Below the pieces are notes generated by a model. That model was not told the origin of the DNA and did not search any database. It saw only the letters and a list, made by a program, of their open reading frames with translations. Below are positions 14,731-33,079 of a DNA stretch of 64,000 nt, in pieces. How positions within the stretch are numbered: position 1 is the stretch's first letter; every line of letters begins with the position of its first letter. Source of the stretch: Sulfuriroseicoccus oceanibius (GTDB lineage Bacteria; Verrucomicrobiota; Verrucomicrobiia; Verrucomicrobiales; SLCJ01); the NCBI RefSeq assembly GCF_010681825.2, contig NZ_CP066776.1, forward strand, positions 2,852,001-2,916,000. The letters run 5' to 3'. The position numbers and the translations under genes are program-made.

Positions 14731-17334
14731 TCAGAACAGATCGCTGCTCGGACCGCCGGACACCGAGGTCTCACCGCTCACGTCGGTGCTGTACTCGTTG
14801 AGGTTCTTACCAGCAGGGTCGATCAGGCGAGCTGTCACGAAGACCATCAGGTTACGCTTGAAGCGCTCCTCTGCCTTGGTCTTAAACAAACGCCCCACGA
14901 TTGGGATGTCGCCAAGGATAGGCACCGAGTCCTCGATGTCCTGAACGTCTTCGCGGATCAAACCACCAAGCGCAACGGTCTGACCGTCCCACACGGTCAC
15001 CTGGGTCTTGACTCGGCGAGTCGAGAACACAGGCATGTCGATGCGGTTGTCGGTGATGGTCACACTGGTCGGACGACCAAGTGCGTCGATCGCAGGAGTC
15101 GTGATCGGGTTACCGTAGTTGATGAAGCCGTCGAACTCGACCACCTCTGGAGCGAGGTTCAGATCGATGGTGAAGTTGTTCGCTCCAACGGTTGGATCCA
15201 CCTCAAGAGTCACACCAGTGTTACGCGTTTCGAACGCGGTTGGTGTCGCAGGTGTCACAGGGAACGAGGTCACGGTAGCGACTCCGTCACCACCACCACC
15301 GTCACCGCCACCACCATCGATGTTGTTGGCGCCGACTGCGTTTGGAAGCTCTGGTGGATCGTACTCGGTTGGGTAGATGAATTCTCGAATCACCTCGACT
15401 CGAGCCGGTGTACCCGGGCGGGTGGTCACCTGCGGAGCGGAGAGAAGGTCAACGCCCTTCTTCTGGTTGAGCGCACGCATCACCACCTGGAACTGAGGCT
15501 CGGTCAGGATACCTGCGATGCCAAGCACGCCAGGTGCCACGTTCTCACCTTGTGCCTCGGAGATCGAGGAGTTGAGAATCGAATCAATTGCACCGCGTGT
15601 GATACCAAAATCACCGGAACGGTTACCAGCTGTCACTGGGTTGCTGCCGAGAGGCTGCGGAATGATACCCGAGGTTGGGTCGACCACCGGCCAATCGCCT
15701 GGGTTGACTGCGGTTCCGTTACCGGCGGTACCACCGGTCACGACCACACCCTTCTGGGAGTCAACGGTAAGAGGTCCAAGCAACCAGTCGAAACCGAGCT
15801 CGTAACCATTGCGCTGGGTCACTTCCACGAACTTAACGCGGACGTTCACCATCTTAGGCGCCTTGTTCTTCGCCTCGTCGACGATCACCTCAACCAACTC
15901 CATGGCCTGAGGTGTACCAGTCACGGTCAGCACCGAGTTACCTGGATCGTAGCTGGCACGACCATTCTCACCGAATGGGACACCACGGCTCTCAAGGTAC
16001 TCTTGTGCAGTCATGCGGGCAGCAACCGCGGCGCCACCGCCGCCACCGCCAGTAGCAAATGGATCATCGTTGAAATCAGCCGCACCGCCACCGCCATCGG
16101 TAGGAATGAAGGTTGGTGGGACATCAAAGCTGCGGGTGTAAACGTTCTTGTCGACAGAATCGTTAGGAGCCAACACGACCGCGTACTCTTCAACCTTCAC
16201 ACGCATGTCGGTCAAGTCGGCTACATAGCGAAGCACTTCACCAAGCGGCAGGTTGCGGAGGTTAATCTCCGAGATCAAAAGGTCGTCCGGGCGACCACCT
16301 TCAGCCAAGCTGCTGCGCGAGTCGATCACGATCGACACGCCACGGTTTGCCGGATTCGGATCGGTGTCGATCTCACGGCTCTTGTTGCGAAGGAACTGCA
16401 CCACTTCACGCAGTGTCTGATCTTCGAACTGAACGCTAGGAATGATCAGGCGGTCCAACTTGCGCTGAATGGCAAGGCGTCCATCTGTCTGTCCACCGTC
16501 ATCTTCAGATCCACCGAGTTTCGGCACATCGATCAATGCAGGCTTGATCTCCCACTCGCTGTCCACTTCCGCCAGCATCTCTGCACGGGTACGGGTACGG
16601 GCGACACTGTAGTATTCGATCTTGAAACGCTCGATCTTCTCGTGGAAGCGCTGAGCCGCTTTGTTGTACTTGTCGATGCGAAGCACCTGATCGAACATCT
16701 TCTCGGCATTGTCGTAATCGTCGAGAAGGAAATAGCTTTCACCAAGCTTGAGAAGACGGGTCACTTCAGCTGCTCGCTGCTGAAGCTCATTGTAATCGTC
16801 ACCACCGGTGCTCACCAACGGGAAGCGCTCTTCATCCTCCAGAAGCTCACGCATACGGAGCGCACGCTTGTTGCCTGGATCAACGGTTGGAAGCAGCACA
16901 TCGTCAATCAACTGACGAGCTTCGGTGTAACGCCCTTCGCCAGCGCGCTGCTTGGCAAGCAACAACGAGGCACGGACATAACGGGATGTCACCGACTCAT
17001 GAAGATCGGCAGTCACATTGCCGCGTGGAATCAGATCACGGGCTTCACGGAAATCCTGCAACGCGCCTTCGAAGTCGTCAGCTGCAAGTTTCTCATCGCC
17101 TTCCACAGCAATCTCACGCGCCTTCAACGTCATCTCCTGACGACGAATCAACTCGCGTTGAGCAGTGCTGCTAAGTCCGGATGAATAACCGGCCGATCCA
17201 TAGCCAGCTCCACCGGTGTACCCGGTCGAGCCCGCCAGGGCGCTTGGCATCGAAAGCGGCGTTAGCGCTGCAGCAGTCGCCGCAACAGCAGCCAGCTTCC
17301 AATAGCTTGTCTTTAAATTGTTTGTGTTTCTCAT
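14731..17334 (-). CDS. Amuc_1098-type secretin, PilQ-like outer-membrane channel
   Basis: The 867-residue protein has a signal peptide (residues 1-35), a short Gly/Ser/Tyr-rich stretch, TPR-like helices from about 50 to 270 (EKLAADDFEGALQDFREA, YFLLDDYDNAEKMFDQVL), a secretin N-domain near 290-400 (FEDQTLREVVQFLRNK, INLRNLPLGEVLRYVADLTD), a ring-building repeat around 445-520 and the secretin core from about 590. The signature at 790-850 is clear: VWDGQTVALGGLI, VPILGDIPIVGRLFK and RNLMVFVTARL. Type IV pilus secretins form multimeric outer-membrane pores. N-terminal TPRs are a feature of the verrucomicrobial Amuc_1098 family. It is the last gene of the five-gene locus, 91 bases after the Amuc_1099 homologue, with its own terminator. 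Confidence 0.92.
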   Translation of the reverse strand: MRNTNNLKTSYWKLAAVAATAAALTPLSMPSALAGSTGYTGGAGYGSAGYSSGLSSTAQRELIRRQEMTLKAREIAVEGDEKLAADDFEGALQDFREARDLIPRGNVTADLHESVTSRYVRASLLLAKQRAGEGRYTEARQLIDDVLLPTVDPGNKRALRMRELLEDEERFPLVSTGGDDYNELQQRAAEVTRLLKLGESYFLLDDYDNAEKMFDQVLRIDKYNKAAQRFHEKIERFKIEYYSVARTRTRAEMLAEVDSEWEIKPALIDVPKLGGSEDDGGQTDGRLAIQRKLDRLIIPSVQFEDQTLREVVQFLRNKSREIDTDPNPANRGVSIVIDSRSSLAEGGRPDDLLISEINLRNLPLGEVLRYVADLTDMRVKVEEYAVVLAPNDSVDKNVYTRSFDVPPTFIPTDGGGGAADFNDDPFATGGGGGGAAVAARMTAQEYLESRGVPFGENGRASYDPGNSVLTVTGTPQAMELVEVIVDEAKNKAPKMVNVRVKFVEVTQRNGYELGFDWLLGPLTVDSQKGVVVTGGTAGNGTAVNPGDWPVVDPTSGIIPQPLGSNPVTAGNRSGDFGITRGAIDSILNSSISEAQGENVAPGVLGIAGILTEPQFQVVMRALNQKKGVDLLSAPQVTTRPGTPARVEVIREFIYPTEYDPPELPNAVGANNIDGGGGDGGGGDGVATVTSFPVTPATPTAFETRNTGVTLEVDPTVGANNFTIDLNLAPEVVEFDGFINYGNPITTPAIDALGRPTSVTITDNRIDMPVFSTRRVKTQVTVWDGQTVALGGLIREDVQDIEDSVPILGDIPIVGRLFKTKAEERFKRNLMVFVTARLIDPAGKNLNEYSTDVSGETSVSGGPSSDLF

Positions 17335-17425
17335 AGTGGTGAACTAATCGCCTACACTCCCAGCTTCTGGGGGGGATGGACGGGGTAGAAAAGCATCAGG
17401 GTCAGTTGTCAATCAAGGCAAAAGA

Positions 17426-18496
17426 TCAATTTTGTTGAGGTTTTAGAGCAGCCCCTTTCGGATACTCCATGGTGATGAGCTTGCCAGTGGCCTTCTCTTT
17501 GATTTCGACGGTTGCCACCCCGTCGGTAACCTTCACCAATCGCAGTGTGTAACCACTGAGCAATTCCGGCAGATCACCGGAGTTCTGCAGCAGCTCCAAC
17601 TTCACCGGCTGGTCCGGTGAAGCGACAAATCCAAACAATCCGGAGACATCTCCGAAGTCCACCGTTTCACGGTCAGGGATCCGCTGCGTACGCTTTGGAT
17701 GCCCCTCCGGACGAGAGTGGTCAACGACGATCGCAGTTGGAGTTGCCCCCTGTTCGACCGAATCAAGCGAGAAACGTCCAGCCTCTTCCTTTCGCTTGTT
17801 GCTTGGAATCTTCTTCTTCAGACCATCCTGGTTGAGATACTCGTTCCACTGGCCAGTGCGACGGTTGGTACGGTCCGGATGCTTGAGCTGCCAGTCATTC
17901 GCTCCGATCGAACTGAACATGATCGGATACGGATCATTCAGCATGCGATCAAACACGAGCTTGTAGTAGTACGGCGGATGGCTCTCTGGATCAGTCGGAT
18001 CGAACGAGGTACCCATCGCTTTACCGAAGAGAAACTCCTCTTCGTTTGTGAAATGGTCACCATCCGGGTCAAGATTACCCACATTCTCGTACTCCTTCTC
18101 CAAACGATACTTCATCAGGTACTCATTGGTCATTGGAGGACGCAACAGCGGATCGTTCTTATCAAGATCAACGATCACACTCTCCCCCCCGTCTTTCTTA
18201 AGCACCAACGGAGTAGAAACCATGAATCCGCGCGGACGTCCGGCAGCTTCATAGTTCTTCCAGGAGTCAAACGAAACAGATCCGGCAATCTTCTTGGTAG
18301 CATCAACGGTCTGCTCGACCATCACCTGCTCTGGAGTCTGCCCACCAATCTTCGCGGTCACATCCGGAAGTTTGTATTCGTCGACTTCATCACTGAATGA
18401 GAGTGCACTGCTAATCACCCAACCACCCACGCCAAGCGCCACAACCCCGGCGGCGATCAACATGATTGGGTCTTCTTTGCGTACGGCTTTCTTCAT
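17426..18496 (-). CDS. Amuc_1099-type pilus-like system protein
   Basis: The 356-residue protein has a cytoplasmic tip (MKKAVRKEDP), one membrane segment at about 12-32 and a periplasmic remainder. The middle carries an EF-hand-like acidic loop, NLDPDGDHFTNEEEFLFG, and the aromatic block HPPYYYKLVFDRMLNDPYP. The C-terminal 120 residues look beta-rich (DVSGLFGFVASPDQPVKLELL). Position and topology match Amuc_1099 of Akkermansia. In type IV pilus machines the inner-membrane proteins PilN, PilO and PilP link to the secretin; this protein may take the PilP-like place, but that is inferred from gene order only. It lies 87 bases after the Amuc_1100 homologue. Confidence 0.8.
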   Translation of the reverse strand: MKKAVRKEDPIMLIAAGVVALGVGGWVISSALSFSDEVDEYKLPDVTAKIGGQTPEQVMVEQTVDATKKIAGSVSFDSWKNYEAAGRPRGFMVSTPLVLKKDGGESVIVDLDKNDPLLRPPMTNEYLMKYRLEKEYENVGNLDPDGDHFTNEEEFLFGKAMGTSFDPTDPESHPPYYYKLVFDRMLNDPYPIMFSSIGANDWQLKHPDRTNRRTGQWNEYLNQDGLKKKIPSNKRKEEAGRFSLDSVEQGATPTAIVVDHSRPEGHPKRTQRIPDRETVDFGDVSGLFGFVASPDQPVKLELLQNSGDLPELLSGYTLRLVKVTDGVATVEIKEKATGKLITMEYPKGAALKPQQN

Positions 18497-18583
18497 AATC
18501 TAATAGTTGCAGCTACCGGCTATTCGCCGGATCCCCGCATATTCGAGGCTGTGTAATTTGTGAACGTGTTGAACGAGTAAAGC

Positions 18584-19693
18584 TTAGTTCTGATCTGCGT
18601 CATCTCCCGCGAGCGGCTTAAACACGGTAAAGTCCAAAACCGCAGTGAGAATCACCTCTTCCGCACCAAGGAACACCACGGCATCCCGCCCCCCCTTCTC
18701 TTCGACGAGACTAGCCAACTCGGCAGCCGCACTGGCATCAAGCACCTCCTCCTCAGCAGCAGGCTCCTCGGCAGCAGCTTCTTCACCGCCACCAGCAAGA
18801 CGCGCAGCGCGACGCTCAGCGTCTGTCATTCCAGAATCTTCTTCGAATCCACCGAACTCACTGAAGCTTCCAAAATCGCTCATTCCACCCCCAGCAGGAG
18901 ATGAATCAACAACCTCCGACGACTGAATCCTTGCTTCAACCTCTTCCTTGGCAGGGGCCGTTGGATTGCTGTTACGCAAGTTGACATAACGCACTCCAAA
19001 GAGATGGTCCTCGGCCTTCACCAGATCATTCAACAAGCTCTGAACCTTGCCCTCAGGACCGCGCACAGCGATGACAATTTGGTAGGTATTCACAGGCGAC
19101 TCCACTTCGTCACCGTAATCATCGTCGTCATCAGATGCAGAAGCCGCGACTTCTCCCGCCACCTCTTGGCGCTCAAAGCGAACCAGCTCAGACATTCCAT
19201 TGGCTACCACCTTATCCAGAAGCCACGTAACAGCTTCCAGCTGATGATCCAACTCTGCGACCGCCGATGGGTTGGCCTGAATACGGTCACGATAGGTTTC
19301 GAACCCAAGGAAGAACCCATCAGGAACGGTAATCTTGCGGTTCTGCCAACGGTTGCGCAGCTCTTGATAACGCGCCTCGACTCGCTGACCAAAGGTATCG
19401 GGCGAACCAACTTCTCCTTTGAACGAATAGCGCTCAACCGCCTTCCGTAGCATCGCCTGAGCATCGGTCTCCAATTGAGCAACCGCCGCCTCCTTTGCTG
19501 CCACAACTTCCTTGACGGGAACTTCTTCGCGCGCCGCAGCGCCTTTCAGAGCTCGAAGCGACTTCTCAATCTCATCACGAGCGTCATCGGCGCGGCCTTT
19601 GCCGTCGATGGTCAGGTAGCCAAACACACCGGCACCCACAACCACGGTACCGATCAAACCTGCCAGGTACTGATTATTCTTAATCCAATTCAT
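18584..19693 (-). CDS. Amuc_1100-type pilus-like protein
   Basis: The 369-residue protein begins MNWIKNNQYLAGLIGTVVVG, a membrane anchor at about 8-28, followed by a long helical stretch with coiled-coil character (about 35-175) and a beta-alpha ferredoxin-like segment (YQIVIAVRGPEGKVQSLLNDLV). This is the layout of Amuc_1100, the abundant Akkermansia outer surface protein known for effects on host receptors, and of PilO. The homologue is about 50 residues longer than the 317 I recall for Amuc_1100. The extra length falls in an acidic patch (SDDDDDYGDE, near 190) and an Ala/Glu-rich insert (about 285-335). It is probably cotranscribed with the genes on both sides. Confidence 0.85.
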   Translation of the reverse strand: MNWIKNNQYLAGLIGTVVVGAGVFGYLTIDGKGRADDARDEIEKSLRALKGAAAREEVPVKEVVAAKEAAVAQLETDAQAMLRKAVERYSFKGEVGSPDTFGQRVEARYQELRNRWQNRKITVPDGFFLGFETYRDRIQANPSAVAELDHQLEAVTWLLDKVVANGMSELVRFERQEVAGEVAASASDDDDDYGDEVESPVNTYQIVIAVRGPEGKVQSLLNDLVKAEDHLFGVRYVNLRNSNPTAPAKEEVEARIQSSEVVDSSPAGGGMSDFGSFSEFGGFEEDSGMTDAERRAARLAGGGEEAAAEEPAAEEEVLDASAAAELASLVEEKGGRDAVVFLGAEEVILTAVLDFTVFKPLAGDDADQN

Positions 19694-19758
19694 TTCGTAT
19701 AAATTCTTCGCGGATCACATCCGCATGAGTCTTTGATTCAGGATTTCCTAACTTGGCA

Positions 19759-21525
19759 TTAGCGAAGCAAGATCGGCTCGGCAAGAGGCAAGGTCATCTC
19801 AAACGCCCAGGCGTAATCGTCATCGTTGCGGCTACTCACCTTCAAGCGCTTTGCCTTCTCTTGTGGCGGAACTTCAGCCAACACGAGCGGCCCCGTCTTC
19901 GATTCGCGCAAACGGTCGTAAATCTGATTAATCTGGTTCTGCCCCGCCGGAGCATTGCGCCAGAATCCCTTGATGCGGATCTCAGTCACCACATCAGGTC
20001 GCGGCTTCCCACCATCTTCCTCATCGAACTCGAGCTCTTCACCCACAGCGGTGCGCTCTTTCAGCGCTCCGAAGTCACGCACTCCAGTGCCTCCGGCCAG
20101 AGGCTCAAGATCGGTCACCCAAATAATATCGCTCGCAAACTGACGGTTAAGTTCATCAATGATACCTACCCAACGATCACGCATCTCGAAAATGCGCATC
20201 ACCGGACCTCGGTTCACATCGATCTCGGAAATCTGGTCATCAAGCACCGACAGATCTCGCTTGTTACCATCCACAACCTTACCCACTGCAGAGAACTCAC
20301 CCGCTTTGTCTTCGAGCTTGGAGGCTGCCATCTGCTGGTAAACAGCCCCAGCTCCCAGTGCCGCAAGCACACACACTGCCGCTGTCGTAAGAAACGGCTT
20401 CCGTGCGGCAATCTCACGCCGTGCAGCCACAGTCGCCGGCACCAAGTCTACATCCACAGGCACACCGCCTGCCTGACCAAGAGCAAGACCCACAAGCTCG
20501 CCCATCCGATGACCCACAGCTGAAACAGCCGCCGCATCGACCTGAGGACCCACAGCCACGTTGCGCATGGCATTAAAGTATTCAACCTGCGCGCCCAACT
20601 TATCGTGAAGGAATTCGATAGTGTAAGGAAGGGATGCTCCCCCTCCCGCCAGAAGCACGCGCTTTGGCACGGTACCGCCCTGCTGGGTACGGTAGAAGTT
20701 GTTGGTACGAACAATCTCAGAATGAAGGCGCGTCATCGTTGTGCGCACGATCTTGGAGATCGCGTCGATCCGAGGATCCGGATTCTCCTCATAGGCACCG
20801 CCAAGCGCCACATATCCATCCTGGATCTTTTGCTGTTCAGCAACCTGGAAGGTCACACCAAGATCCTTTGCAATCGCACTGGTCACCGAAGCGCCGCCCA
20901 CTGCGATCGTACGGGCAAACAAACTACCACCCTCGATATACAGAAGATTGGTACTGCGGGAACCGATATCGACCAACAAAACCGGCTCATCGACGTCCGG
21001 ATAGTTATAACGATACGCATTGTAAAGCGCCATCGCATCAACTCCGACGCCATTGACAACAAGCTTGGCATCTTCCACCACCCCGTTGAGGGAGTTCAAC
21101 TGATCAAGCTTGATTGCAAACAAACCGACTTCCAGGTCACCGTCAGCAGTCTCACCAAACACCTGGTAATCCCAGGCAACCTCGTCAATCGGGAACGGAA
21201 CGTGCTGCTGCGCCTCAAAGCGCACCATCTCGTCAATCTTGTCCTCGCTGACCGCCGGAATCTTCACAAAGCGAGTGAAGACCGACTGCCCCGAGATCGA
21301 ATAGCGGCAGCCTTCTCCCTTGGAGACACCCAACTGTTGGGTCACGCCATCCAAAGCGAGCGCGGTTTGGGAGATCTTGGCGGAGTCCAAAGTGGTATCC
21401 CCGTCCATCGCCTCAAATGCATGCCCTTGAAGAATCACCCCACCGGAAGGATCCGCCTGAAAGCGAGCCCCTGCCACGGTTTGAGATCCGATATCAATCG
21501 TCGTTATCAATGTTGATTTTGCCAT
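19759..21525 (-). CDS. Amuc_1101-type protein: PilM-PilN fusion
   Basis: Start at the ATG at 21525 gives MAKSTLITTIDIGSQTV and 588 residues; the longer frame to 21591 adds an unlikely leader. Residues 1-360 are an actin/FtsA-like ATPase domain of PilM type (IDIGSQTVAG, DKIDEMVRFEAQQHVPFPIDEVAWDYQ, VLLVDIGSRSTNL, RVLLAGGGASLPY). A single membrane segment at about 375-395 (LTTAAVCVLAALGAGAVY) is followed by a short coiled region and a PilN-like periplasmic domain (DELNRQFASDIIWVTDLEPL). In ordinary type IV pilus operons PilM and PilN are separate, with PilM binding the cytoplasmic tail of PilN. Here the two are one chain. It lies 65 bases upstream of the Amuc_1100 homologue. Confidence 0.88.
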   Translation of the reverse strand: MAKSTLITTIDIGSQTVAGARFQADPSGGVILQGHAFEAMDGDTTLDSAKISQTALALDGVTQQLGVSKGEGCRYSISGQSVFTRFVKIPAVSEDKIDEMVRFEAQQHVPFPIDEVAWDYQVFGETADGDLEVGLFAIKLDQLNSLNGVVEDAKLVVNGVGVDAMALYNAYRYNYPDVDEPVLLVDIGSRSTNLLYIEGGSLFARTIAVGGASVTSAIAKDLGVTFQVAEQQKIQDGYVALGGAYEENPDPRIDAISKIVRTTMTRLHSEIVRTNNFYRTQQGGTVPKRVLLAGGGASLPYTIEFLHDKLGAQVEYFNAMRNVAVGPQVDAAAVSAVGHRMGELVGLALGQAGGVPVDVDLVPATVAARREIAARKPFLTTAAVCVLAALGAGAVYQQMAASKLEDKAGEFSAVGKVVDGNKRDLSVLDDQISEIDVNRGPVMRIFEMRDRWVGIIDELNRQFASDIIWVTDLEPLAGGTGVRDFGALKERTAVGEELEFDEEDGGKPRPDVVTEIRIKGFWRNAPAGQNQINQIYDRLRESKTGPLVLAEVPPQEKAKRLKVSSRNDDDYAWAFEMTLPLAEPILLR

Positions 21526-21659
21526 ATTGATGAGTTTCCGAAATAAGTTCGCGTCCAGTGCTGAAGTACCAAACCGCCTCAGCCCAGCCACGTGAAGATA
21601 AATGTGTCAAAAAATTACCATCGCACCATCAGCGCGCGGCGCACTGGGTACCTCTGTCT

Positions 21660-21694
21660 AGAAAGACAAACAGCCGCGCTCTAACGAGCACGGC
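21660..21694 (-). terminator. Likely terminator or attenuator between Amuc_1102 and Amuc_1101 homologues
   Basis: On the minus strand a 9-bp stem with one mismatch (21694-21686 with 21681-21673, loop of four) is followed by a T-rich run, TGTTTGTCTTTC. It sits 12 bases after the stop of the Amuc_1102 homologue. The U tract is broken, so it may be a partial terminator that lowers expression of the downstream genes. Confidence 0.55.
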
Positions 21695-21705
21695 CGAACT
21701 CCCGA

Positions 21706-22341
21706 CTATCGCTCCTGCCGGGTCTGCGGGTAACGATCGTACCACAACAAAGCAAACGGGGTATTCCCCTTCGCTCGAATCAAACCGCTCTCACGCGGAT
21801 CAGACCACTTTTTCCACCATTCACCGCCCTTGGTCGACGCAAACAAGTCCTTAGGCTTGCTCATCGAGATATTTGGAGCCGTAACCGTCACACCAACCGA
21901 CTGCACATCACCCTTACTAGGCTTATCCTTCCCCACGAAACGGGCAAGTGTGTCCGGATCGACGTACGCCACGAGGTACGCCTTTTTGGAACCCGCACGA
22001 ATATTTGTGAAGGTGATCGAATCCGAAAGCATCACATACCTCGCCGCACGATCCGCCTCATTCGGAAGCGCCACGTAGAAGGTCGCAGTCAACTCCGGGA
22101 TCACTTTGGTCTCCGCACGGGAATCCACATCCAACTCCACCTCAATCTCCAACCACTCAAGTTGATCCCAGCGCTTGTCACGAGGACCAGCCGCTGCATA
22201 ACGAGGGGTCTGTTGCATCTCCACCTCAACCTTTTTAACTTCAACCTTATGTTGAACCTGAGCGGAGACGTATGTTGGCAACGCGGCCATTCCGACCACT
22301 GCCAACGCGAGGCTACGTGAGAATTTCTGGAGGGTTTTCAT
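21706..22341 (-). CDS. Amuc_1102-type pilus-like protein
   Basis: The 211-residue protein has a signal peptide (residues 1-28, ending VSAQ), then a beta-rich body. It contains KVEVKKVEVEMQQTP, a conserved WDQLEWLEIEVELDVD block, and ends with FALLWYDRYPQTRQER. Position at the head of the locus and overall features match Amuc_1102. Function is unknown; it is expected in the periplasm or at the surface. It is transcribed away from aroD across a 219-base divergent gap that should hold its promoter. A possible terminator directly after it suggests that it may be made in greater amount than the rest of the locus. Confidence 0.8.
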   Translation of the reverse strand: MKTLQKFSRSLALAVVGMAALPTYVSAQVQHKVEVKKVEVEMQQTPRYAAAGPRDKRWDQLEWLEIEVELDVDSRAETKVIPELTATFYVALPNEADRAARYVMLSDSITFTNIRAGSKKAYLVAYVDPDTLARFVGKDKPSKGDVQSVGVTVTAPNISMSKPKDLFASTKGGEWWKKWSDPRESGLIRAKGNTPFALLWYDRYPQTRQER

Positions 22342-22560: not shown

Positions 22561-23280
22561 ATGAGCCACGACACCTCATCCAATCTCCCTCACCCTCCGC
22601 GCGTTGTCACCACCATCAACAACGCGGACGACCTCGCATTCGCGCGCACCGCGGACCTACCATCACTTTGCGATGTGCTTGAGATTCGGCTCGACGGACT
22701 CCAAGAGACACCTCTCGAGCTCTCGGAACTTCAATCCCTCCACGCCACCACCCCACTCATCCTCACCGCCCGACGCGAGGACGAAGGCGCATTCTCCCCA
22801 ATGAGCGACGCAGCCAGGATCGACGCAATCCACCAAACCCTCCTCCAAGATGCCATGGTGGACCTCGAATTCCGAACCCTCAACTCTACTGCAAAAAGCC
22901 CAGCACTCACCCGGCTACTCGAAGCCATGAAGAACAACGGCAACACCATCGTGATGTCCTATCACGACTTCAACGGTGTACCAGACGAAGCACAGATCCG
23001 CGACCACCTCGCCTGCGCCAGGGAACACCGCGCGATCACCAAGATCGCAGCGACCGTCAACTCAACCACCCAACTCCAACTCTGGACCGAAAGACTCGCC
23101 CAACTGGAATGCTCCAACCAACGCTTCTCTTTCATGGGGATGGGGAAGTTTGGCATGGCCACCCGACTCATCGCTGCATCCGCAGGGTCGGAGCTCAATT
23201 ACGGATTCATCCAATCTGCATCAGTCCCTGGTCAATGGCCGGCCAAGCTCCTCAAGGCTACCATTGCAAAGCTTTCATGA
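22561..23280 (+). CDS. aroD: Type I 3-dehydroquinate dehydratase
   Basis: The 239-residue protein belongs to the class I Schiff-base enzymes of the shikimate pathway. Motifs are VLEIRLDGL, LILTARREDEG, His135 in VMSYHDF, the imine-forming Lys161 in ITKIAATVN, and FMGMGKFGMATRLIAAS near the end. It removes water from 3-dehydroquinate in the cytoplasm, on the route to chorismate. It stands 51 bases before the MCE operon on the same strand. A shared transcript is possible but there is no functional link. Confidence 0.93.
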   Translation: MSHDTSSNLPHPPRVVTTINNADDLAFARTADLPSLCDVLEIRLDGLQETPLELSELQSLHATTPLILTARREDEGAFSPMSDAARIDAIHQTLLQDAMVDLEFRTLNSTAKSPALTRLLEAMKNNGNTIVMSYHDFNGVPDEAQIRDHLACAREHRAITKIAATVNSTTQLQLWTERLAQLECSNQRFSFMGMGKFGMATRLIAASAGSELNYGFIQSASVPGQWPAKLLKATIAKLS

Positions 23281-23331
23281 ACTGGTTAACGTCACCGGAA
23301 ATCTTAGCCCACCTTAGCGACACACCCACCG

Positions 23332-24486
23332 GTGACCGACTCTACACCATCCGCAGATCTCATCGCTCCGTCAGCACCTTCCGCTGACGGCGTAGGGCAT
23401 GTACTCAAATTCCGCGGTGATTGGACTCTTGAGACACCGCGCCCGAAAGTCGCCCAATTGATCGCTGAGATTGAGCGCCTCGCCGCGGGATCCAGCCTCA
23501 CTCTCGACACCCTGGAAGTCACCCGCTACGACTCCTCCCTCACCGCGCTGATTCTCCGCCTGATCCGCACCAGCGAAAGCCGCCAACTCAAGATCGACCA
23601 CACGTCGCGCACCGACCCCAGCATCCATAACATGATGGAACTGGCCCTCGGCGTCCCCATTAACAAAGACGCCGAGCGCACACACGAATGCGAGCACGAC
23701 TTCTTCTGTACCGTCGGCAAGGCAACCCTCGACCTCTACAGCTACATCATCGACACGATGAGCTTCATCGGCGAGACGGTCCTCTCATTGGGCCGCTTCG
23801 TAACAGGCCGCGCCCGCTTCAGATCCCGTGACTTCTGGATCACGCTCCAATCATGCGGCGCCGAAGCCCTTCCCATCGTCACACTCATCAGCTTCCTGGT
23901 TGGGACCATTCTCGCATTTGTTGGCAAAGCCCAGCTCGACACCTTCGGCGCATCTATCTACGTCGCTGACTTGGTAGCAATTGCCATGGTCCGGGAAATG
24001 GGATGCCTCATGACCGGCATCATCATGAGCGGCAGAACCGGTGCGGCATTCGCCGCTCAGATCGGCTCCATGAAAGTCACGCAGGAGATCGACGCCCTGC
24101 GCACTTTTGGCTTCCGCCCATTCGACTACCTCGTGCTGCCCCGCATGATCGCAATGATCTTGATGATGCCCCTGCTCACGATCTACTCAAATATCGTCGG
24201 CATCACCGGCGGCATGCTCGTATCCTGGGCATCAGGCATCCCCCCGCTGCTCTATTTCAACTCGACAGTCGAACTCCTCGACATCACCACAGCATCCCTC
24301 GGCGTCATCAAAAGCTTCTTCTTTGGTATCGTCATCGCCGGCGCAGGCTGCCTCCGCGGCATGCAGTCGGGCAACAGCTCATCCGCAGTTGGAACAGCAG
24401 CCACCCGTGCCGTCGTCACAGCGATCACCGCCATCATCGTGATCGACTCGTTCTTCGCTGTCGTTTTCACCATTCTCGACATCTGA
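23332..24486 (+). CDS. mlaE: MlaE-type lipid ABC permease with N-terminal STAS-like domain
   Basis: Start is GTG at 23332. The 384-residue protein has a soluble N-terminal part of about 110 residues with STAS-like pattern (VLKFRGDWTLETP, LEVTRYDSSLTALILRLI), then a connecting helix and the MlaE/YrbE permease (about 165-384) with about five membrane segments. Typical blocks are VTLISFLVGTILAF, REMGCLMTGIIMSGRTGAAFAAQIGSM-type sequence and IDALRTFGFRPFDYLVLPR. In the Mla system MlaE is the permease and MlaB is a separate STAS protein; here the STAS-like part is fused to the permease. The ATPase gene follows after 10 bases. The complex is expected in the inner membrane, moving phospholipids between membranes. 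Confidence 0.9.
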   Translation: MTDSTPSADLIAPSAPSADGVGHVLKFRGDWTLETPRPKVAQLIAEIERLAAGSSLTLDTLEVTRYDSSLTALILRLIRTSESRQLKIDHTSRTDPSIHNMMELALGVPINKDAERTHECEHDFFCTVGKATLDLYSYIIDTMSFIGETVLSLGRFVTGRARFRSRDFWITLQSCGAEALPIVTLISFLVGTILAFVGKAQLDTFGASIYVADLVAIAMVREMGCLMTGIIMSGRTGAAFAAQIGSMKVTQEIDALRTFGFRPFDYLVLPRMIAMILMMPLLTIYSNIVGITGGMLVSWASGIPPLLYFNSTVELLDITTASLGVIKSFFFGIVIAGAGCLRGMQSGNSSSAVGTAATRAVVTAITAIIVIDSFFAVVFTILDI

Positions 24487-24496
24487 TCCCCCACTC

Positions 24497-25285
24497 ATGT
24501 CCGCCACCACCCCACATATTGATGTTCGCGACCTCACCATGGCCTACGGGACCAACGTGGTGATGCGCGAACTCAATTTCCAAGTCTCACGCGGCGAAAT
24601 CTTCGTCATCATGGGAGGTTCGGGCTGCGGTAAAAGCACCCTGCTGCGCCACATGATTGGACTACTCCAGCCAGCCAGCGGCGAGATCTTTTACAACGGC
24701 AAGACGTTCACCAAAGCTACTGCAGCTGAGCACCAACGCATGCTCAGGACCTTCGGCGTACTCTATCAGTCCGGCGCACTCTGGAGCTCGCTCACCCTCG
24801 CGGAAAACATCGCCACCCCACTGGAAGAGTTCACCGACCTCAAACGCAACGAAATCGCCGACATTGTTAGCTACAAGCTCTCACTCGTCGGGCTGGGCGG
24901 TTTCGAGGAATACTACCCATCGGAAATCAGCGGAGGCATGAAAAAGCGCGCCGCTCTCGCCCGAGCCATGGCGCTCGACCCGGAGATCCTCTTCTTTGAC
25001 GAACCCTCCGCGGGCCTCGACCCCATCACCTCGCGCCGCCTCGACGAACTCATCCTCGAGATCAGTCGCAGCATGAACACCACCGTCGTACTCGTAACAC
25101 ACGAACTTCCCAGCCTCCTCGGCATCGGCGACAACTCGATCTTCCTCGACGTTACCACGAAGCGCCAAGGCCCGATCGGCAACCCGTCGTTCCTCAAAGA
25201 TCACAGCACCAACCCGAACGTGCGCAAGTTTCTCAACCGCGGCGAATCTCCATCGCCAACAACCCAAGCTACCCCAGGACCATGA
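24497..25285 (+). CDS. mlaF: MlaF-type ABC ATPase
   Basis: The 262-residue protein is a complete ATP-binding subunit. Walker A is GGSGCGKST (40-48), the Q-loop is in TFGVLYQSGALWSSL, the signature is EISGGMKKRAALARA, Walker B is ILFFDEPSAGLDP, and the switch histidine is in VTHELPSLLG. The YQSGALWSSLTLAENI stretch is typical of MlaF/Ttg2A ATPases. Its stop overlaps the start of the MCE gene by four bases (ATGA), a sign of coupled translation. Confidence 0.94.
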   Translation: MSATTPHIDVRDLTMAYGTNVVMRELNFQVSRGEIFVIMGGSGCGKSTLLRHMIGLLQPASGEIFYNGKTFTKATAAEHQRMLRTFGVLYQSGALWSSLTLAENIATPLEEFTDLKRNEIADIVSYKLSLVGLGGFEEYYPSEISGGMKKRAALARAMALDPEILFFDEPSAGLDPITSRRLDELILEISRSMNTTVVLVTHELPSLLGIGDNSIFLDVTTKRQGPIGNPSFLKDHSTNPNVRKFLNRGESPSPTTQATPGP

Positions 25286-26280
25286 GCTCCAAGGCCAACC
25301 CAACCGCCATCGGCATTTTCGTCACCGGCGCCATCGCGCTCGGCGCGTTCGCTATTCTCTTGATCGGCAGCGGCCAATGGCTACGCAGCAAGCAGGAGTT
25401 CATCCTCTACTTCCGCGCCGACGCCAACGGTCTGGATGTCGGATCAGACGTCCGCATTGGCGGAGTGGCCATCGGCACGGTCGAATCCATCAGCATCGAG
25501 CTCAACCCTGAGACCGGCACGAAAATCGTCCCCGTCGTCGTCTCCATCGATGAGCAAAACTTCACCAGACTCTCGCCGGCAACCGCCGACATCGACCTGG
25601 GCAACCCGCAGCACCAACGCGAAATCATCGAAAGCGGCTTACGCGGGCGCCTCCGCCAGAACAGCATCCTCACCGGGAAGCTCTTCGTGGAGTTGGACTT
25701 CCTCCCAGACCAAGAGGGTTTTGTGTTCGATTCCCGCCATTCCAGAGAGCACCCTCAGATCCCGACCATCCCCGCCACCATGGATGCCATGATGGAATCG
25801 ATTTCGGAAAGTCTGGACGCCATCAGCAGCCTCAATTTCACCGAACTCTTCGACGAGATCACCAAGCTCGTAAAAGTCACCGAACAACGAGTAGCCCAAC
25901 TCGACACTGAGGAAATTAAAGAAGGCATCGTCGGCACCACAGACGACATCCGACGGGTGCTCAACGACCCCGAACTTGCTCAAGGTTTGGACGACTTCAA
26001 ACTTGCCGCAGCGCAGATCAAGGAGTTGACGACAACCCTCAACTCCAAAGCCGGACCGATCGCCGACAACCTGGACCAGGCGCTCGCCAAGGCCGATGCC
26101 AGCATGTCCAAGATCGAAGCCGCCGCCGACGGACTCGCCGGGCTCACCGCCGAGGACGCCCCCACCATCATGCGCCTGAACGACGCAATTGCCGAGATCC
26201 AGCGCACATCGAAAGCTTTCCGGGAATTAGCCGACTTCCTCAAGCGCAATCCGGACGCGGTACTCAAAGGTCGCGACTAA
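25282..26280 (+). CDS. mlaD: MlaD-type MCE substrate-binding protein
   Basis: The 332-residue protein has one membrane anchor (about 10-32, TGAIALGAFAILLIGSG) and an MCE domain at about 38-130 (FILYFRADANGLDVGSDVRIGG-type start, GVAIGTVESI, GLRGRLRQNSILTGKLFVELDF). A long helical tail follows, rich in Ala, Asp and Glu (about 170-332). MCE proteins form hexameric rings that bind lipids in the periplasm. The tail is longer than in E. coli MlaD and closer to the tube-forming MCE proteins that span the periplasm. Codon overlap with the ATPase gene supports one operon. Confidence 0.92.
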   Translation: MSSKANPTAIGIFVTGAIALGAFAILLIGSGQWLRSKQEFILYFRADANGLDVGSDVRIGGVAIGTVESISIELNPETGTKIVPVVVSIDEQNFTRLSPATADIDLGNPQHQREIIESGLRGRLRQNSILTGKLFVELDFLPDQEGFVFDSRHSREHPQIPTIPATMDAMMESISESLDAISSLNFTELFDEITKLVKVTEQRVAQLDTEEIKEGIVGTTDDIRRVLNDPELAQGLDDFKLAAAQIKELTTTLNSKAGPIADNLDQALAKADASMSKIEAAADGLAGLTAEDAPTIMRLNDAIAEIQRTSKAFRELADFLKRNPDAVLKGRD

Positions 26281-26300
26281 CCTAATCCCCACCTTTTCCC

Positions 26301-26915
26301 ATGAAAACGCTCACCACCCTCCTCGCACTTGGCTCCTGCCTGCTACTTGGATCCTGCGCACTGCTCACGAAGACCTCGGACAAACGCGCGATCTATACGC
26401 TGCGCCCAATCGAGCACACGCCATTGGCAACCATGCCAACCTTCAGCGCACACGTTACCTCGGTATCCATTCCCGGCTATCTCGACCGCTCTGAACTCGT
26501 AACCCGCTCCAGCCCCAACCAGCTGGATATCCGCCACCGCGCCGTCTGGGGAGACGACCTTCAATCCGACATCGCCCGAACTCTGGCAACCAACCTCCGC
26601 TCACTCCTCGGCACCAGCTACATCGTAGCCCGCGATAGCAACCTCGCACGACGCGACGACGCCACACGCATCGACCTGGAGATTAACCGCTTCGAACCTC
26701 TCCCCGGCGGCCGCCAAATCGAGTTCAGCGGACTCTACTCGCTGCGCCAAAGCTACTCACCGCAACCCGCAAGAATCCTCCCGTTCTCCATTATCCTCGA
26801 CCAAGCCCAAGCCAGCGCGACAAACAGCGCTACCCTGATGTCGGTCGAGACAATGAACGCCGCCCTCGATGAACTCAGCCTCCAAATCGCACAGGCTCTG
26901 ATCGACCGCAGCTAA
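26301..26915 (+). CDS. PqiC/ABC-type transport auxiliary lipoprotein
   Basis: The 204-residue protein begins with a lipoprotein signal peptide; the lipobox is LLLGSC with Cys19 the likely modified residue (Cys13 in LALGSC is an alternative). The mature part resembles PqiC-type (DUF330) auxiliary lipoproteins: YTLRPIEH at the start, VSIPGYLDRSELVTRSSPNQL, WGDDLQSDIARTLATNL and ILDQAQ near the end. In Pqi systems PqiC is an outer-membrane lipoprotein that receives the MCE tube. It lies 20 bases after the MCE gene and completes the transport operon. Confidence 0.85.
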   Translation: MKTLTTLLALGSCLLLGSCALLTKTSDKRAIYTLRPIEHTPLATMPTFSAHVTSVSIPGYLDRSELVTRSSPNQLDIRHRAVWGDDLQSDIARTLATNLRSLLGTSYIVARDSNLARRDDATRIDLEINRFEPLPGGRQIEFSGLYSLRQSYSPQPARILPFSIILDQAQASATNSATLMSVETMNAALDELSLQIAQALIDRS

Positions 26916-29050: not shown

Positions 29051-29084
29051 CAAAAAAACCGTGGGCGCAGCCGGCACCCACGGT
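29051..29084 (-). terminator. Rho-independent terminator of the three-gene exported-protein operon
   Basis: On the minus strand an 8-bp stem, ACCGTGGG with CCCACGGT (29084-29077 with 29065-29058), closes a GC-rich loop and is followed by seven T residues. It lies 25 bases after the stop codon at 29110. Confidence 0.88.
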
Positions 29085-29109
29085 CTTGTCTTGAATACTC
29101 TGCAGTCGA

Positions 29110-30213
29110 TTACTCGGACGATCCGACGTTCGCATTCACCACGATCTCGCGATCGACAGTGAACGTCACCACATCAAGACGCTCAGGCTCACCGTTATTG
29201 AAAGGCGTCTTACTCAACAACTCCATGGTGTAAACCCCGTCATCGCCAAGATACTGCTCCCAGTTCTCCGCAATCACATCGAGCTCCTGCGGCTCGTCCG
29301 CTTGGATATCGCGTACCGATGCGGCAATCACCTTACCCACTGTACCCAAAGCCTCCTCACCTTCATAGACGTGAAGGTAAATCAAACTATCAGGATACAC
29401 ATCGGTCACCTGATACCGCACTTCTGGAATGTTCCGCAGAACTTTCTGATCTTCCTCGACACCGATGATCTTACCTTCAGCAACCGGCCAAACTTTGATC
29501 GTTTCGGAGTCTAGAATCGCACTAGCGGTATAGCTAAAGCCGCTCCCCGTGTCTGCCTTCACGATGGAGAAAATGGTGAACACCTCCTCACCCTCAGCCT
29601 TGGTCGCATCCTCGATCACCTTCCCCTTCTCAACCGTTTCACCGACCAAGGAAGTGTACTGTTCACGAATCAACGCTCCATTCTCCATGAAGAAGCTCTC
29701 CACCTCCACTTGGTTCGTCTTCTGACCAAGAGGCGCCGCATGGGTCTTAGGATTGTAATCTTCTTTCACATAACGATAAAAGACCATCCGCTCGTGCAAG
29801 TCGGCATCGTCATCATTAACCATCCCCGCAGTGCGCAGCTTGACTCGATAAGGCCGGTCCGCACGAGTCCGCAACGGCACCGCAGGATCCTCGGAGGTAA
29901 TCGTCACCTTGGCTTTAGGCTGATAAGTCCCGATAATCTTGCTATCCAGGAAGTAGATCTTGGTATCAGGCTCAATACCTTGCGCGTACAACTCAAACTT
30001 CGCACCGCTCTCAGGGATCGCCATTGGTGCCGGCGTCACGCCTTCCAAAGTAGGAAGGTAGTAATCCCAGATGAGCCCACTATCGTCCATCTGGATCTGA
30101 CGGATCAAATCACCATCAGCCTCGGTTTGAGCAAACACTCCAGTCACACAAATAGGCAACAGCCCACAAGCAGCCAACAGAGTTCTGCCACCAACTCGAA
30201 TCGCTCTCTTCAT
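29110..30213 (-). CDS. Exported protein of unknown function
   Basis: The 367-residue protein has a signal peptide (residues 1-28, ending GVFAQ). No known domain was recognised. The mature protein is acidic and beta-rich, with several strand-like blocks (KFELYAQGIEPDTKIYFLDSK, VRYQVTDVYPDSLIYLHVYEGEE), and ends in a segment that could be an immunoglobulin-like fold (GVYTMELLSKTPFNNGEPERLDVVTFTVD). It has no membrane anchor, lipobox or C-terminal sorting motif that I can see. It is the last gene of a unit with the next two entries, 39 bases after its neighbour, and ends at a strong terminator. The shared context suggests one periplasmic or surface system. Confidence 0.75.
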   Translation of the reverse strand: MKRAIRVGGRTLLAACGLLPICVTGVFAQTEADGDLIRQIQMDDSGLIWDYYLPTLEGVTPAPMAIPESGAKFELYAQGIEPDTKIYFLDSKIIGTYQPKAKVTITSEDPAVPLRTRADRPYRVKLRTAGMVNDDDADLHERMVFYRYVKEDYNPKTHAAPLGQKTNQVEVESFFMENGALIREQYTSLVGETVEKGKVIEDATKAEGEEVFTIFSIVKADTGSGFSYTASAILDSETIKVWPVAEGKIIGVEEDQKVLRNIPEVRYQVTDVYPDSLIYLHVYEGEEALGTVGKVIAASVRDIQADEPQELDVIAENWEQYLGDDGVYTMELLSKTPFNNGEPERLDVVTFTVDREIVVNANVGSSE

Positions 30214-30252
30214 AGTATCTTTTGGTTCGGGGTTTAATTCTTGATAGAGTCT

Positions 30253-30840
30253 CTATCCCTTTCCAGGGCTCTTCGCAGCCTTCAGCTGCTTCTTCACATC
30301 TCCTCGGTAGGAAATTGGATGCCGCTGATAGACCGACACGGAGATTCGTTGATCAGCAACAATCGCTTCAAGCAAAGGTTCCTTGAGATGCTCCTTGCCG
30401 GTTGCCTCCTCGACGCTCAAATCGATAGTACGCAGCCACCCGAAGTTCTGACGCAAAAACTCAGGCCATAACACAAACTGTCCAACAGGCTCGTTCACCA
30501 CCCGGTCACTCAAGACTTCAGGCACAAACATCACCGCCCCTTCAGGCAAAATCGTGTGCTTGCCGTCGTAAGCGATAATCGTCGAGTTGTCGTAGATCGA
30601 CGGATTCATCGGCACCGACTTGTTCGGCACAATCATGTAGTTCCGTTCTCGGTCGATCTTCTTGCGCTTCGCGTTCATCTCCTCACGCGTCACACGGTTG
30701 GCCGATGGCGCCTTGAGATCCTTCGGCAGACCATTCGCATCCAAGCGGTCTGACTTCTTCAGCCACACCACCTGTTGGGCGGAAACATCCCCTCCAGCCA
30801 CGACCGCGGCCACCATCAACATGTAGAACAATTTCTTCAT
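30253..30840 (-). CDS. Small exported protein of unknown function
   Basis: The start at 30840 gives MKKLFYMLMVAAVVAGGDVSAQQ, a good signal peptide, and 195 residues; a longer frame to 30900 would overlap the upstream gene. The first part is basic (TREEMNAKRKKIDRERNYM), followed by a beta-rich stretch (STIIAYDGKHTILPEGAVMFVPEVL) and a helical end with basic residues. No known family was recognised. The start codon lies 7 bases after the stop of the gene upstream, so coupled translation is likely. Confidence 0.72.
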   Translation of the reverse strand: MKKLFYMLMVAAVVAGGDVSAQQVVWLKKSDRLDANGLPKDLKAPSANRVTREEMNAKRKKIDRERNYMIVPNKSVPMNPSIYDNSTIIAYDGKHTILPEGAVMFVPEVLSDRVVNEPVGQFVLWPEFLRQNFGWLRTIDLSVEEATGKEHLKEPLLEAIVADQRISVSVYQRHPISYRGDVKKQLKAAKSPGKG

Positions 30841-30847
30841 ATAAACT

Positions 30848-31633
30848 CTAGTACCTCCAAGCGTCCCAAGGCCCCGCAGCGACTTCCTCGTCGTCCACAA
30901 ATCTCCAATCCACCTTGGCTCCGCTCTTAATAGCGAGAAAATCTCTTACCGCAGGGCTCACGTCAATCCCCGCATCGTCATTTCGGTTCGGTAGCGGCCG
31001 GTTCTGACCAAACACATAGTCAACATCATCGGTCCGAAATGGACCAACATCCCGCCACTGCGCATAGCAAACTTTTCCGTTGTAACGGATCGCAACCCAA
31101 CGCCCGTCACAAACCGTAATCCCCGGCCCGCGATAGTCCTCCCAGTACCACGGAATATAATGGTCCGCCCCCTCACGCAGCAATCCCGTAGACGGGTCGA
31201 TGTCGTTAAACGGAAGCGCCACGTAAAATGGCGACTGATCAGGATAAAACCCAATCGGCAGGTAGCCATTTCTGGCGTCGGGCGCATCAAACCCACCAAA
31301 GGTCTGCTGCCAATACGGATCCCACGAACTCTTGTCGTTGCTCACCGGGTTGCCAGGCCGAGCCTCTTCCCCAACCCAGAAAACCGTAGCCGTAATTCGA
31401 TCACGCCAACGATAAGTGGGGTCCAACACCCGGTAGCGGGCCAAGCCAAGGTCACGAACATCAACCCCATGCGGCCGTGGCAACACGGACTCCATCGAGG
31501 CTGCTCCAATGGCACACCGATCCATCATCGCTTCATGCGCATCCGCCAGCCGGCCGGATAATCCGACAGCATTCACCGAATGCACACTCGCAATGGCAAA
31601 CGCCAAAATCATCAGATCACATTTCACTGTCAT
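30848..31633 (-). CDS. Exported protein with a possible double-psi beta-barrel end
   Basis: The 261-residue protein has a signal peptide (residues 1-22, ending VNAVG). The last 110 residues run GITVCDGRWVAIRYNGKVCYAQWRDVGPF, then YVFGQNRPLPN, then AGIDVSPAVRDFLAIK. This order, a strand pair, a DxGPF turn and a late IDVS-A-RDFL helix, recalls the double-psi beta-barrel of RlpA-like and endoglucanase-like proteins, where DRGPF and IDLS occur in the same places. That is my inference from pattern alone; the catalytic histidine and aspartate pair of lytic enzymes was not confirmed. It is the first gene of a three-gene unit with short spacers. Confidence 0.7.
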   Translation of the reverse strand: MTVKCDLMILAFAIASVHSVNAVGLSGRLADAHEAMMDRCAIGAASMESVLPRPHGVDVRDLGLARYRVLDPTYRWRDRITATVFWVGEEARPGNPVSNDKSSWDPYWQQTFGGFDAPDARNGYLPIGFYPDQSPFYVALPFNDIDPSTGLLREGADHYIPWYWEDYRGPGITVCDGRWVAIRYNGKVCYAQWRDVGPFRTDDVDYVFGQNRPLPNRNDDAGIDVSPAVRDFLAIKSGAKVDWRFVDDEEVAAGPWDAWRY

Positions 31634-31659
31634 TCTGATCGCAACACCACCCTAACGAA

Positions 31660-31695
31660 AACCCTCAGAAGTGAAATCCATTCAACTCCTGAGGG
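31660..31695 (-). terminator. Rho-independent terminator after the acidic exported protein
   Basis: CCCTCAG (31662-31668) pairs with CTGAGGG (31689-31695), extended inward by a partly paired stretch. On the minus strand the stem is followed by TTTTCGTT. It lies 53 bases after the stop at 31749 and separates that gene from the three-gene unit downstream. Confidence 0.75.
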
Positions 31696-31748
31696 CTTGC
31701 TTCAACCACAAGATGCCTGCCACCCAGAGCAGGCCTGCGGTTCAAATG

Positions 31749-32777
31749 TTACTTGCTTGGGTAGGCACCTCCGCCACGCCCCTCGTCATCGACACACCAA
31801 ACACCATCAACCTCGAAGACAGCATCACTTGGAACCGCATCAGCAGAACCATAGCAACTCTCGGCATAGGCCTCGGCCTCTTCCTTAGAATAGAAAACTT
31901 CCATCCCCTCGTAATCCTTCATGGCATTAGGTCCGCCATGCCCTTTGCCAGGGTTACTAACATCTACACCATCAATGTTGTTTCCGTGACCATTGTTAGA
32001 CTTACCGGATCCCCTCCATCCATCGAGGGCATCGTCGTAGCTTACCGAATCGTCAGAACCAAAATCGTCGTCGTCACGATCGTCGTCGTCATCGTCGGCG
32101 TTTGCATCATCCCAGCCTCCCAAATCTCCAACAGGATCCGGAATCGTCACGCTTCCGGTGAGTCCGTCGTTCTTGGAGCTGATCATCTCCATATTCTTCA
32201 CGACTTTCCAACCAATATTGGGCTTGGTCCCGACCTCCGCATACAGTGGGGTGTCAAGCTCGCCTACCGGCTTCGGCGGCTGCTTCACACCGGTCCCCAT
32301 CAGGATGAGATAACCGTCAGGATTAGAAACGTTGGTCGTGAGAACGAACTTAAGTGTCACGTTGCTCTCATCAATCGCCGGCAGCGGCGACACCACTTCG
32401 ATGTCATCTGTCGTTCCGGTCGCCCGGCCATCAGTCAAGGTGAGTGCATTCCCCACAGACTGACCATTGACAAAGGCCTGAATCTTGAGGTGTGCGTCAA
32501 CCAAGTCTTCCTGTTTGTTCTTACCCGAGGTCGAGAAGCGCCCATTCGACAACACCTCCGCACCCACCGGCGCTGTCGCGTTCAAACGGGCGTAGTACCC
32601 TTGAACCTCGTAATGATACCAGTCACCCATGTTCGCTTCCACTTCGTCGATGGTGTTGGTCATGGAATAAGAATCCATGCCCGGTCCTCCAACAACAAAA
32701 TCAGCAGACGCTGGAACGACAAAAGCTCCTGCCAGGAGGCAGGCCGACAACATTGAAACATTGGGGCGGGTTTTCAT
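31749..32777 (-). CDS. Acidic exported protein with Asp-rich linker and NNGHGNN-type motif
   Basis: The start at 32777 gives MKTRPNVSMLSACLLAGAFVVPASA, a signal peptide, and 342 residues. Residues 26-195 look like one beta-sandwich domain (DWYHYEVQGYYARLNATAPVG, LKFVLTTNVSNPDGYLILMGTG). An Asp-rich linker (DDDDDDRDDDDFGSDDS, about 225-250) follows. Then comes the Gly/Asn segment SNNGHGNNIDGVDVSNPGKG, a motif I recall in other secreted and calcium-binding bacterial proteins. The last 60 residues have two cysteines (SCYGSADA, VWCVDDEG) that could form a disulfide. Function unknown; calcium binding at the surface is a reasonable guess. It is transcribed alone, with a terminator 53 bases after the stop. 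Confidence 0.75.
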   Translation of the reverse strand: MKTRPNVSMLSACLLAGAFVVPASADFVVGGPGMDSYSMTNTIDEVEANMGDWYHYEVQGYYARLNATAPVGAEVLSNGRFSTSGKNKQEDLVDAHLKIQAFVNGQSVGNALTLTDGRATGTTDDIEVVSPLPAIDESNVTLKFVLTTNVSNPDGYLILMGTGVKQPPKPVGELDTPLYAEVGTKPNIGWKVVKNMEMISSKNDGLTGSVTIPDPVGDLGGWDDANADDDDDDRDDDDFGSDDSVSYDDALDGWRGSGKSNNGHGNNIDGVDVSNPGKGHGGPNAMKDYEGMEVFYSKEEAEAYAESCYGSADAVPSDAVFEVDGVWCVDDEGRGGGAYPSK

Positions 32778-33079
32778 ATTCGTTTCGTTACGCTGTTTTT
32801 CAGGGGCCGGCAACAGGGGGATCCGGCATAATCCCTTCACACTGAGAAGACGTTACCAAGTCTCAATTTTTCATTCTAGTGACAATATTTAAAATATTGC
32901 CTGAAAAAATCCCCCCAATTTTGGGTAGGGTCGGTTATAAACTCCAGAATCCTAACCACTCGTCAAGCACGCGATAACAAATAAGGCTGGTTTATTCCAT
33001 CCCCCTAACCGAGGCTCGACGATCCGCTCTCGCTTGACAAAACGCCGCCACAGCCGCAGCTTCAAGCCATCACACAACC

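Follow-up and report, generated by a model that had tools for sequence, protein, structure and literature searches.

This locus raises the question of what purpose is served by three consecutive genes for exported proteins to which no family name can be given. They lie in a window, the whole stretch of DNA analysed here, of 64,000 nucleotides from Sulfuriroseicoccus oceanibius (positions 2,852,001 to 2,916,000 of contig NZ_CP066776.1), and coordinates without a locus prefix count from its first letter. The genes and the signal that closes them are as follows.

31633..30848, minus strand: gene A, 261 aa, exported protein, predicted double-psi beta-barrel, without a named family
30840..30253, minus strand: gene B, 195 aa from ATG, exported protein, without a named family
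30213..29110, minus strand: gene C, 367 aa, exported protein, predicted string of Ig-like beta-sandwich domains, without a named family
29087..29055, minus strand: intrinsic terminator after C, 14 pairs and a T run

Exported proteins of the window and their predicted folds

The three genes were found to be arranged head to tail, with a gap of 7 bases between A and B (30841-30847) and of 39 bases between B and C (30214-30252), and the terminator has a folding energy of -28.2 kcal/mol (z -5.9). For gene B an ATG was taken as the start, the TTG at 30900 given in the ORF list being disfavoured since an overlap with A would result; the conserved part of the protein covers about residues 75-180. The N-termini have 11-residue Kyte-Doolittle maxima of 2.74 (A), 2.65 (B) and 2.43 (C), compared with 1.30-1.55 for the rest of the protein, and signal-peptide-like N-termini are present in 39/42, 58/63 and 63/68 homologues of A, B and C, respectively. 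A has matches in 55 of the 57 related genomes that make up an order-level set, and B and C in 18/57 each, which indicates that these ORFs are not due to chance. Pfam gave no match for A or B and only sub-threshold matches for C, while NCBIfam gave none for A or C and one sub-threshold match for B. Searches of PDB sequences gave nothing significant, whether the query was A or C or a profile of A, B, C or the pilin-like protein X described below. The preliminary description had proposed three exported proteins encoded in tandem, a strong terminator closing the operon and no recognised family for any product, all of which is borne out.

A fourth exported protein is encoded directly upstream of A, with two further features:

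32840..31749, minus strand: gene D (P0004), exported protein, homologue of the D proteins preceding B-C in relatives
31905..31997, minus strand: region of D with the motif NNGHGNNxDGVDxSNPG, common to prepilin-type proteins elsewhere in the phylum
31697..31655, minus strand: hairpin between D and A, 17 pairs, then UUUUCG

On the evidence of its homologues, D is a member of the same gene set. Its listed start is a GTG, and an internal ATG at residue 22 (MKTRPN) is a better fit to a signal peptide. The hairpin (-24.3 kcal/mol, z -4.0) is probably a terminator or attenuator of D. Within D, the motif is preceded by a long acidic run (DDANADDDDDDRDDDDFGSDD).

The model of C (pLDDT 88) consists of tandem beta-sandwich domains, in agreement with the earlier view of this protein as beta-rich; an alignment of C comprised 66 of 68 sequences plus the window C, with L132 and L129 left out. 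It matches Ig-like proteins with Z up to about 8 and large rmsd, and one domain matches the biofilm protein RbmA (Z 7.6, rmsd 3.1, 97 residues). These matches may reflect only a common arrangement, and neither RbmA nor the complement-like matches (Z 7-8) were taken as relatives. PilY1 has a beta-propeller, and no Pfam match to the PilY1 (Neisseria PilC) beta-propeller was found in A-D of the window or in B, C and D of locus L070. The identification of C as PilY1 was rejected, as C has no family match and is modelled as tandem beta-sandwiches and not as a propeller.

Gene A probably encodes a double-psi beta-barrel, as had been hinted at from a segment of its sequence. Its structure model is of low confidence (pLDDT 51.6), and its matches by Foldseek and VIA-align are almost all to proteins of that fold; the best is kiwellin (Z 7.0, rmsd 3.5, 101 aligned residues), with Z < 8. 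A profile of A scored 27.8 against RlpA-type barrels, the best of 100 column shuffles reaching 20.1, with a probability of only 18% and with 9 of 16 loci compared, namely those in which a script found the barrel pattern. The RlpA family includes lytic transglycosylases, and its catalytic pair is His and Asp. A resembles the RlpA-type proteins (PF03330) in its predicted fold and in a D-x-GPF...IDxS pattern, its invariant Asp195 aligning with the Asp of DRGPF. It differs in that 0/20 A proteins match PF03330 in Pfam and in that the position of the RlpA His is occupied by an invariant Tyr (by-eye alignment), so A has neither the RlpA family match nor the full catalytic pair.

Distribution and gene neighbourhood

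Mapping of the neighbourhood in relatives showed B and C side by side, usually preceded by D, and running into P1, P2 and X. P1 and P2 have prepilin-like segments at their N-termini and X, of ~650 aa, has a pilin-like hydrophobic N-terminus (by eye); P1 and X are without a named family, and their pilin nature was read by eye from the N-terminus. Genes for a PilT-like ATPase and for the ATPase and permease of an ABC exporter often come after X, and the fuller loci extend beyond these to prepilins, a secretin, PilB and PilC. A is not beside B-C in most relatives; in Luteolibacter, Haloferula and several Akkermansiaceae-labelled genomes it heads the cluster, giving A-D-B-C-P1-P2-X.

X was found in exactly the same 18/57 genomes as B and C, a set that was not widened by a profile search with C, and presence of the three still agrees within the patchy families f3 (7/14 genomes) and f5 (8/14). 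In the family of the window genome itself, X stands apart from B-C. Choosing such a set of 18/57 has a value of 3e-15 by count of ways, which is not a probability as the genomes are related to each other. None of the listed genomes of g3, a genus with small genomes, contains B, C or X. Across the phylum, X was detected in 18 of 387 genomes, all from this same order, the scoring in these searches being limited to a few top candidates from each genome.

When named genomes were scanned with X, 78 loci were obtained, of which three are labelled Chthoniobacter or Spartobacteria (L104, L105, L107). C is present in 69 of these loci, B in 66, D in up to 58, P1 in 73 and P2 in 76, contig ends removing genes in some. 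Where both B and C are present (66 loci), they are neighbours on one strand in 57 cases, as are P2 and X in 71/76. Exact 4-base overlaps were seen at 34/58 close junctions of B-C, 39/70 of P1-P2 and 33/73 of P2-X. The 78 loci overlap in part with the order-level and phylum genome sets (e.g., L098 and G032:C9) and are therefore not independent samples of them. In four loci (L141, L144, L158, L160) the system is duplicated as a tandem pair of D-B-C sets with X; the second set has no P1, and in 3/4 ABC and PilT-like genes come after it.

Cluster-linked and standalone A fall into separate branches in a tree of 42 A proteins, each with support of 99/96. The window A and its counterpart in a genus relative share a branch (99/96) with 19 cluster-linked A proteins, and the second A copy of the window genome groups with standalone A; by this placement, the window gene is of the cluster-specific branch. 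In family f2, two A matches are present in 13/13 genomes with X and a second copy in 0/25 listed genomes without X, the count covering genomes listed with an A or X match. The genomes of f5 in the tree have B, C and X together with A of the standalone type only. The A gene near B-C in G055 (L080) was considered as a cluster-linked copy and rejected, since the tree places it with standalone A. Standalone paralogues (e.g., L063:6585-7445) have no family name and are near-universal in the order, including genus g3. As A is found in almost all genomes of the set, among them those without B, C and X, it also has a role outside the filament system. The linkage of cluster-type A to X indicates that the window trio is a variant arrangement, D-A-B-C, of the larger set; the standalone type of the A near B-C in G055 and of A in the f5 genomes speaks against this.

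Conserved linkage had been expected from the sequence of the window, and the B-C neighbourhood is indeed kept across relatives, with no loss of synteny of the kind that would have spoken against it. The further proposal of a self-contained, undescribed three-gene system was not upheld and was rejected in view of this linkage, the trio belonging to a larger A-D-B-C-P1-P2-X set tied to a pilus- or secretion-like machine. In the literature on Verrucomicrobiota pili, pseudopilins and type IV filaments, no description of the cluster was found, although coverage was partial and its absence there is unproven.

The linked machine and a motif common to D and prepilins

In Brevifollis gellanilyticus (L098), the cluster is followed by ABC genes on the other strand and then by genes for a prepilin, PilC/GspF, PilB/GspE and a secretin. 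An assembly ATPase, a platform protein and a secretin are all present (Pfam PF00437 at 1.9e-85, PF00482 at 1.4e-25 and PF00263 at 2.3e-33, respectively). Class III prepilin-type proteins are likewise found in the cluster. Against TIGR02532 (cut-off 16.3 bits), the P2 of L098 scored 17.8, above the cut-off, and that of L070 12.8, below it; the machine prepilin of L098 scored 18.8 bits.

The window genome possesses a homologous machine in one operon (L221, G000:C1:2814901-2829147), encoding an ABC ATPase and permease, a PilT-like ATPase, a prepilin, a GspM-like protein, a secretin, PilB, PilC and a second prepilin. Scores were 5.2e-93 (PilB-type), 4.3e-39 (GspF-type) and 8.4e-42 (GspD-type), all below the curated equivalog cut-offs. 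One of its two prepilins scored 15.8 bits, just under the cut-off, and the other had no match; the P2 of the window genome likewise gave no match to the prepilin model. The c5 protein of this operon (L221:4380-5681, G000:C1) has a repeated His/Cys/Asp-rich unit (HGPDCGPDCGHDH...), the composition of which suggests metal binding. The genome has one P1-P2-X set at 1.845 Mb (L081), three D-B-C sets and the one machine operon, all split apart. Neither here nor in the genus relative is D-B-C beside P1-P2-X or the machine, so in these two genomes the link depends on co-occurrence.

The mapped loci encode 17 distinct proteins with the motif NNGHGNNxDGVDxSNPG and a Gly/Asp-rich tail, comprising 16 D and one C (20 table rows, three proteins being listed under two locus ids); the D/D2 split in these loci was made by profile. 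The motif is also present in a prepilin-type protein in two genomes of the order that do not have B, C and X: in G018 the gene adjoins those for PilB, PilC and a secretin, and in G053 it stands inside a run of prepilin-type proteins. Across the 387 phylum genomes, the motif occurs at 16 places in 13 genomes (seven D-type, three C-type, four prepilin-type and two other, as labelled by eye), and it has no occurrence in plasmid records. In G414 (L197, L204, L206), a GHGNN motif is inserted within C-type proteins and not in D. As the motif is common to D and prepilin-type proteins, D is tied independently to filament components. A calcium role for it is a guess from composition.

Proposed role and comparison with known systems

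Comparison of genomes gives good support to the conclusion that the A-D genes co-occur and co-localise with genes for pilin-like proteins, ATPase, platform, secretin and ABC exporter. The best explanation, to which we assign a probability of roughly 0.6, is that the four proteins A-D are exported by the Sec route and serve as accessories to a type IV filament machine (type IV pilus/type II secretion-like) of Verrucomicrobiales. From the company of pilin-like machine genes in many related bacteria, A, B and C are probably surface or tip parts of it; the surface-type role foreseen for these exported proteins in the preliminary description is upheld to this extent. C (Ig-like), D and B would be exported to the periplasm and would then join a minor-pilin complex of P1, P2 and X, a loading comparable to that of PilY1 with minor pilins in Myxococcus (PMC7541494). 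The filament could then bring C-D-B as far as the outer membrane or across it, where they would form a substrate-binding module at the tip or surface, with A, as a double-psi barrel, acting at the wall or on glycans beside the machine.

The main rival is a type II secretion-like pseudopilus of which B, C and D are secreted cargo and not the filament tip, a reading which we hold to be rather unlikely. It would account for the GspM-like protein in the machine operon (4.5e-6), for the good scores of secretin and platform against GspD/GspF-type models and for the three D-B-C sets per one P1-P2-X set in the window genome. A further precedent is one Verrucomicrobiota genome with 67 PulG-like pseudopilins, for which alginase export by its type II system was suggested (PMC13274419). 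However, a PilT-like ATPase belongs to the cluster, which fits retraction, and part of the loci have 4-base overlaps at the B-C-P1 junctions, which are commoner for parts of one complex.

It is improbable that the window D-A-B-C is a degenerate or repurposed duplicate that no longer works with the filament machine. While the copy is unlinked from pilins and the genome has three diverged D-B-C sets, all four ORFs are intact, A-B-C is tightly spaced and has a terminator, and the copy has its own cluster-type A. The window C also scores 4.2e-120 against 1e-122 to 1e-141 for most cluster-linked C proteins, on a profile that includes the window C. Quite improbable, finally, is a set modifying the wall or envelope, with A as a peptidoglycan enzyme, B and C as its partners and the pilin genes as mere neighbours. 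The likeness of A to RlpA-type barrels and its near-universal presence without pilins fit such a set, whereas the identical presence of B, C and X across 57 genomes, the cluster-specific A copy gained where X occurs and the Tyr at the RlpA His position (by eye) do not.

Returning to accessory proteins of a filament machine, the presence of three D-B-C sets with one machine and one P1-P2-X set suggests that these sets may be alternative tips or cargoes. More tentatively, and with some doubt, D-B-C(-A) might be an undescribed exchangeable surface-tip module in the place of PilY1, with the motif as a calcium-dependent docking or assembly tag. If so, several D-B-C sets would be available to a single machine, which would load one of them, and the docking tag would be GHGNNxDGVDxSNPG, rich in Asn, Gly and Asp and common to D, some C and prepilins. 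Four nameless families are tied to a filament machine in Prosthecobacter, Verrucomicrobium, Brevifollis, Luteolibacter, Haloferula and Roseibacillus; they are widespread in environmental Verrucomicrobiales and offer a genetic handle on attachment or secretion, and one peptide motif is a marker of filament components in several families within the phylum.

Among known systems, the type II secretion pseudopilus (GspI/J/K) is similar in that a large pilin-like protein comes after the small ones (here X after P1 and P2), and the secretin, ATPase and platform of the cluster resemble GspD/E/F. It differs in that X has no GspK match (0/15 members at E 0.1 against GspK/T2SSK or PilX models of Pfam and NCBIfam) and in that a PilT-like ATPase and an ABC exporter belong to the present set. 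The Verru_Chthon cassette is also a prepilin-type gene cassette of Verrucomicrobiota. Its models are TIGR02596-02600; membership was rejected, as 0/15 X members and neither P1 nor P2 of L070 and L098 match them.

A second pilus-type operon is present in the window itself:

14731..22341, minus strand: type IV pilus operon of the Amuc_1098-1102 family, complete, with secretin and Amuc_1099, 1100, 1101 and 1102 homologues

It lies ~7 kb from the trio on the same strand, and its Amuc_1100 homologue scored 160.2 bits, under the model cut-off of 180 bits. Elsewhere in the window, ORFs at 22561-26915 (plus strand) resemble an MCE/ABC lipid-transport operon (by eye), and an open frame of 3311 aa (54040-63975, minus strand) fills the window end. 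Amuc_1098-1102 of Akkermansia (PMC5332112) is, like the present set, a verrucomicrobial pilus-type envelope operon; it is a separate operon with its own secretin. In type IVa pili, PilY1 is similarly an exported non-pilin protein working with minor pilins, together with which it makes up a complex for priming and at the tip (PMC7541494), whereas up to four smaller exported proteins would occupy that position here. The best reading is that the families are new while the kind of system is known, being a Verrucomicrobiales branch, as yet uncharacterised, of the type IV filament superfamily.
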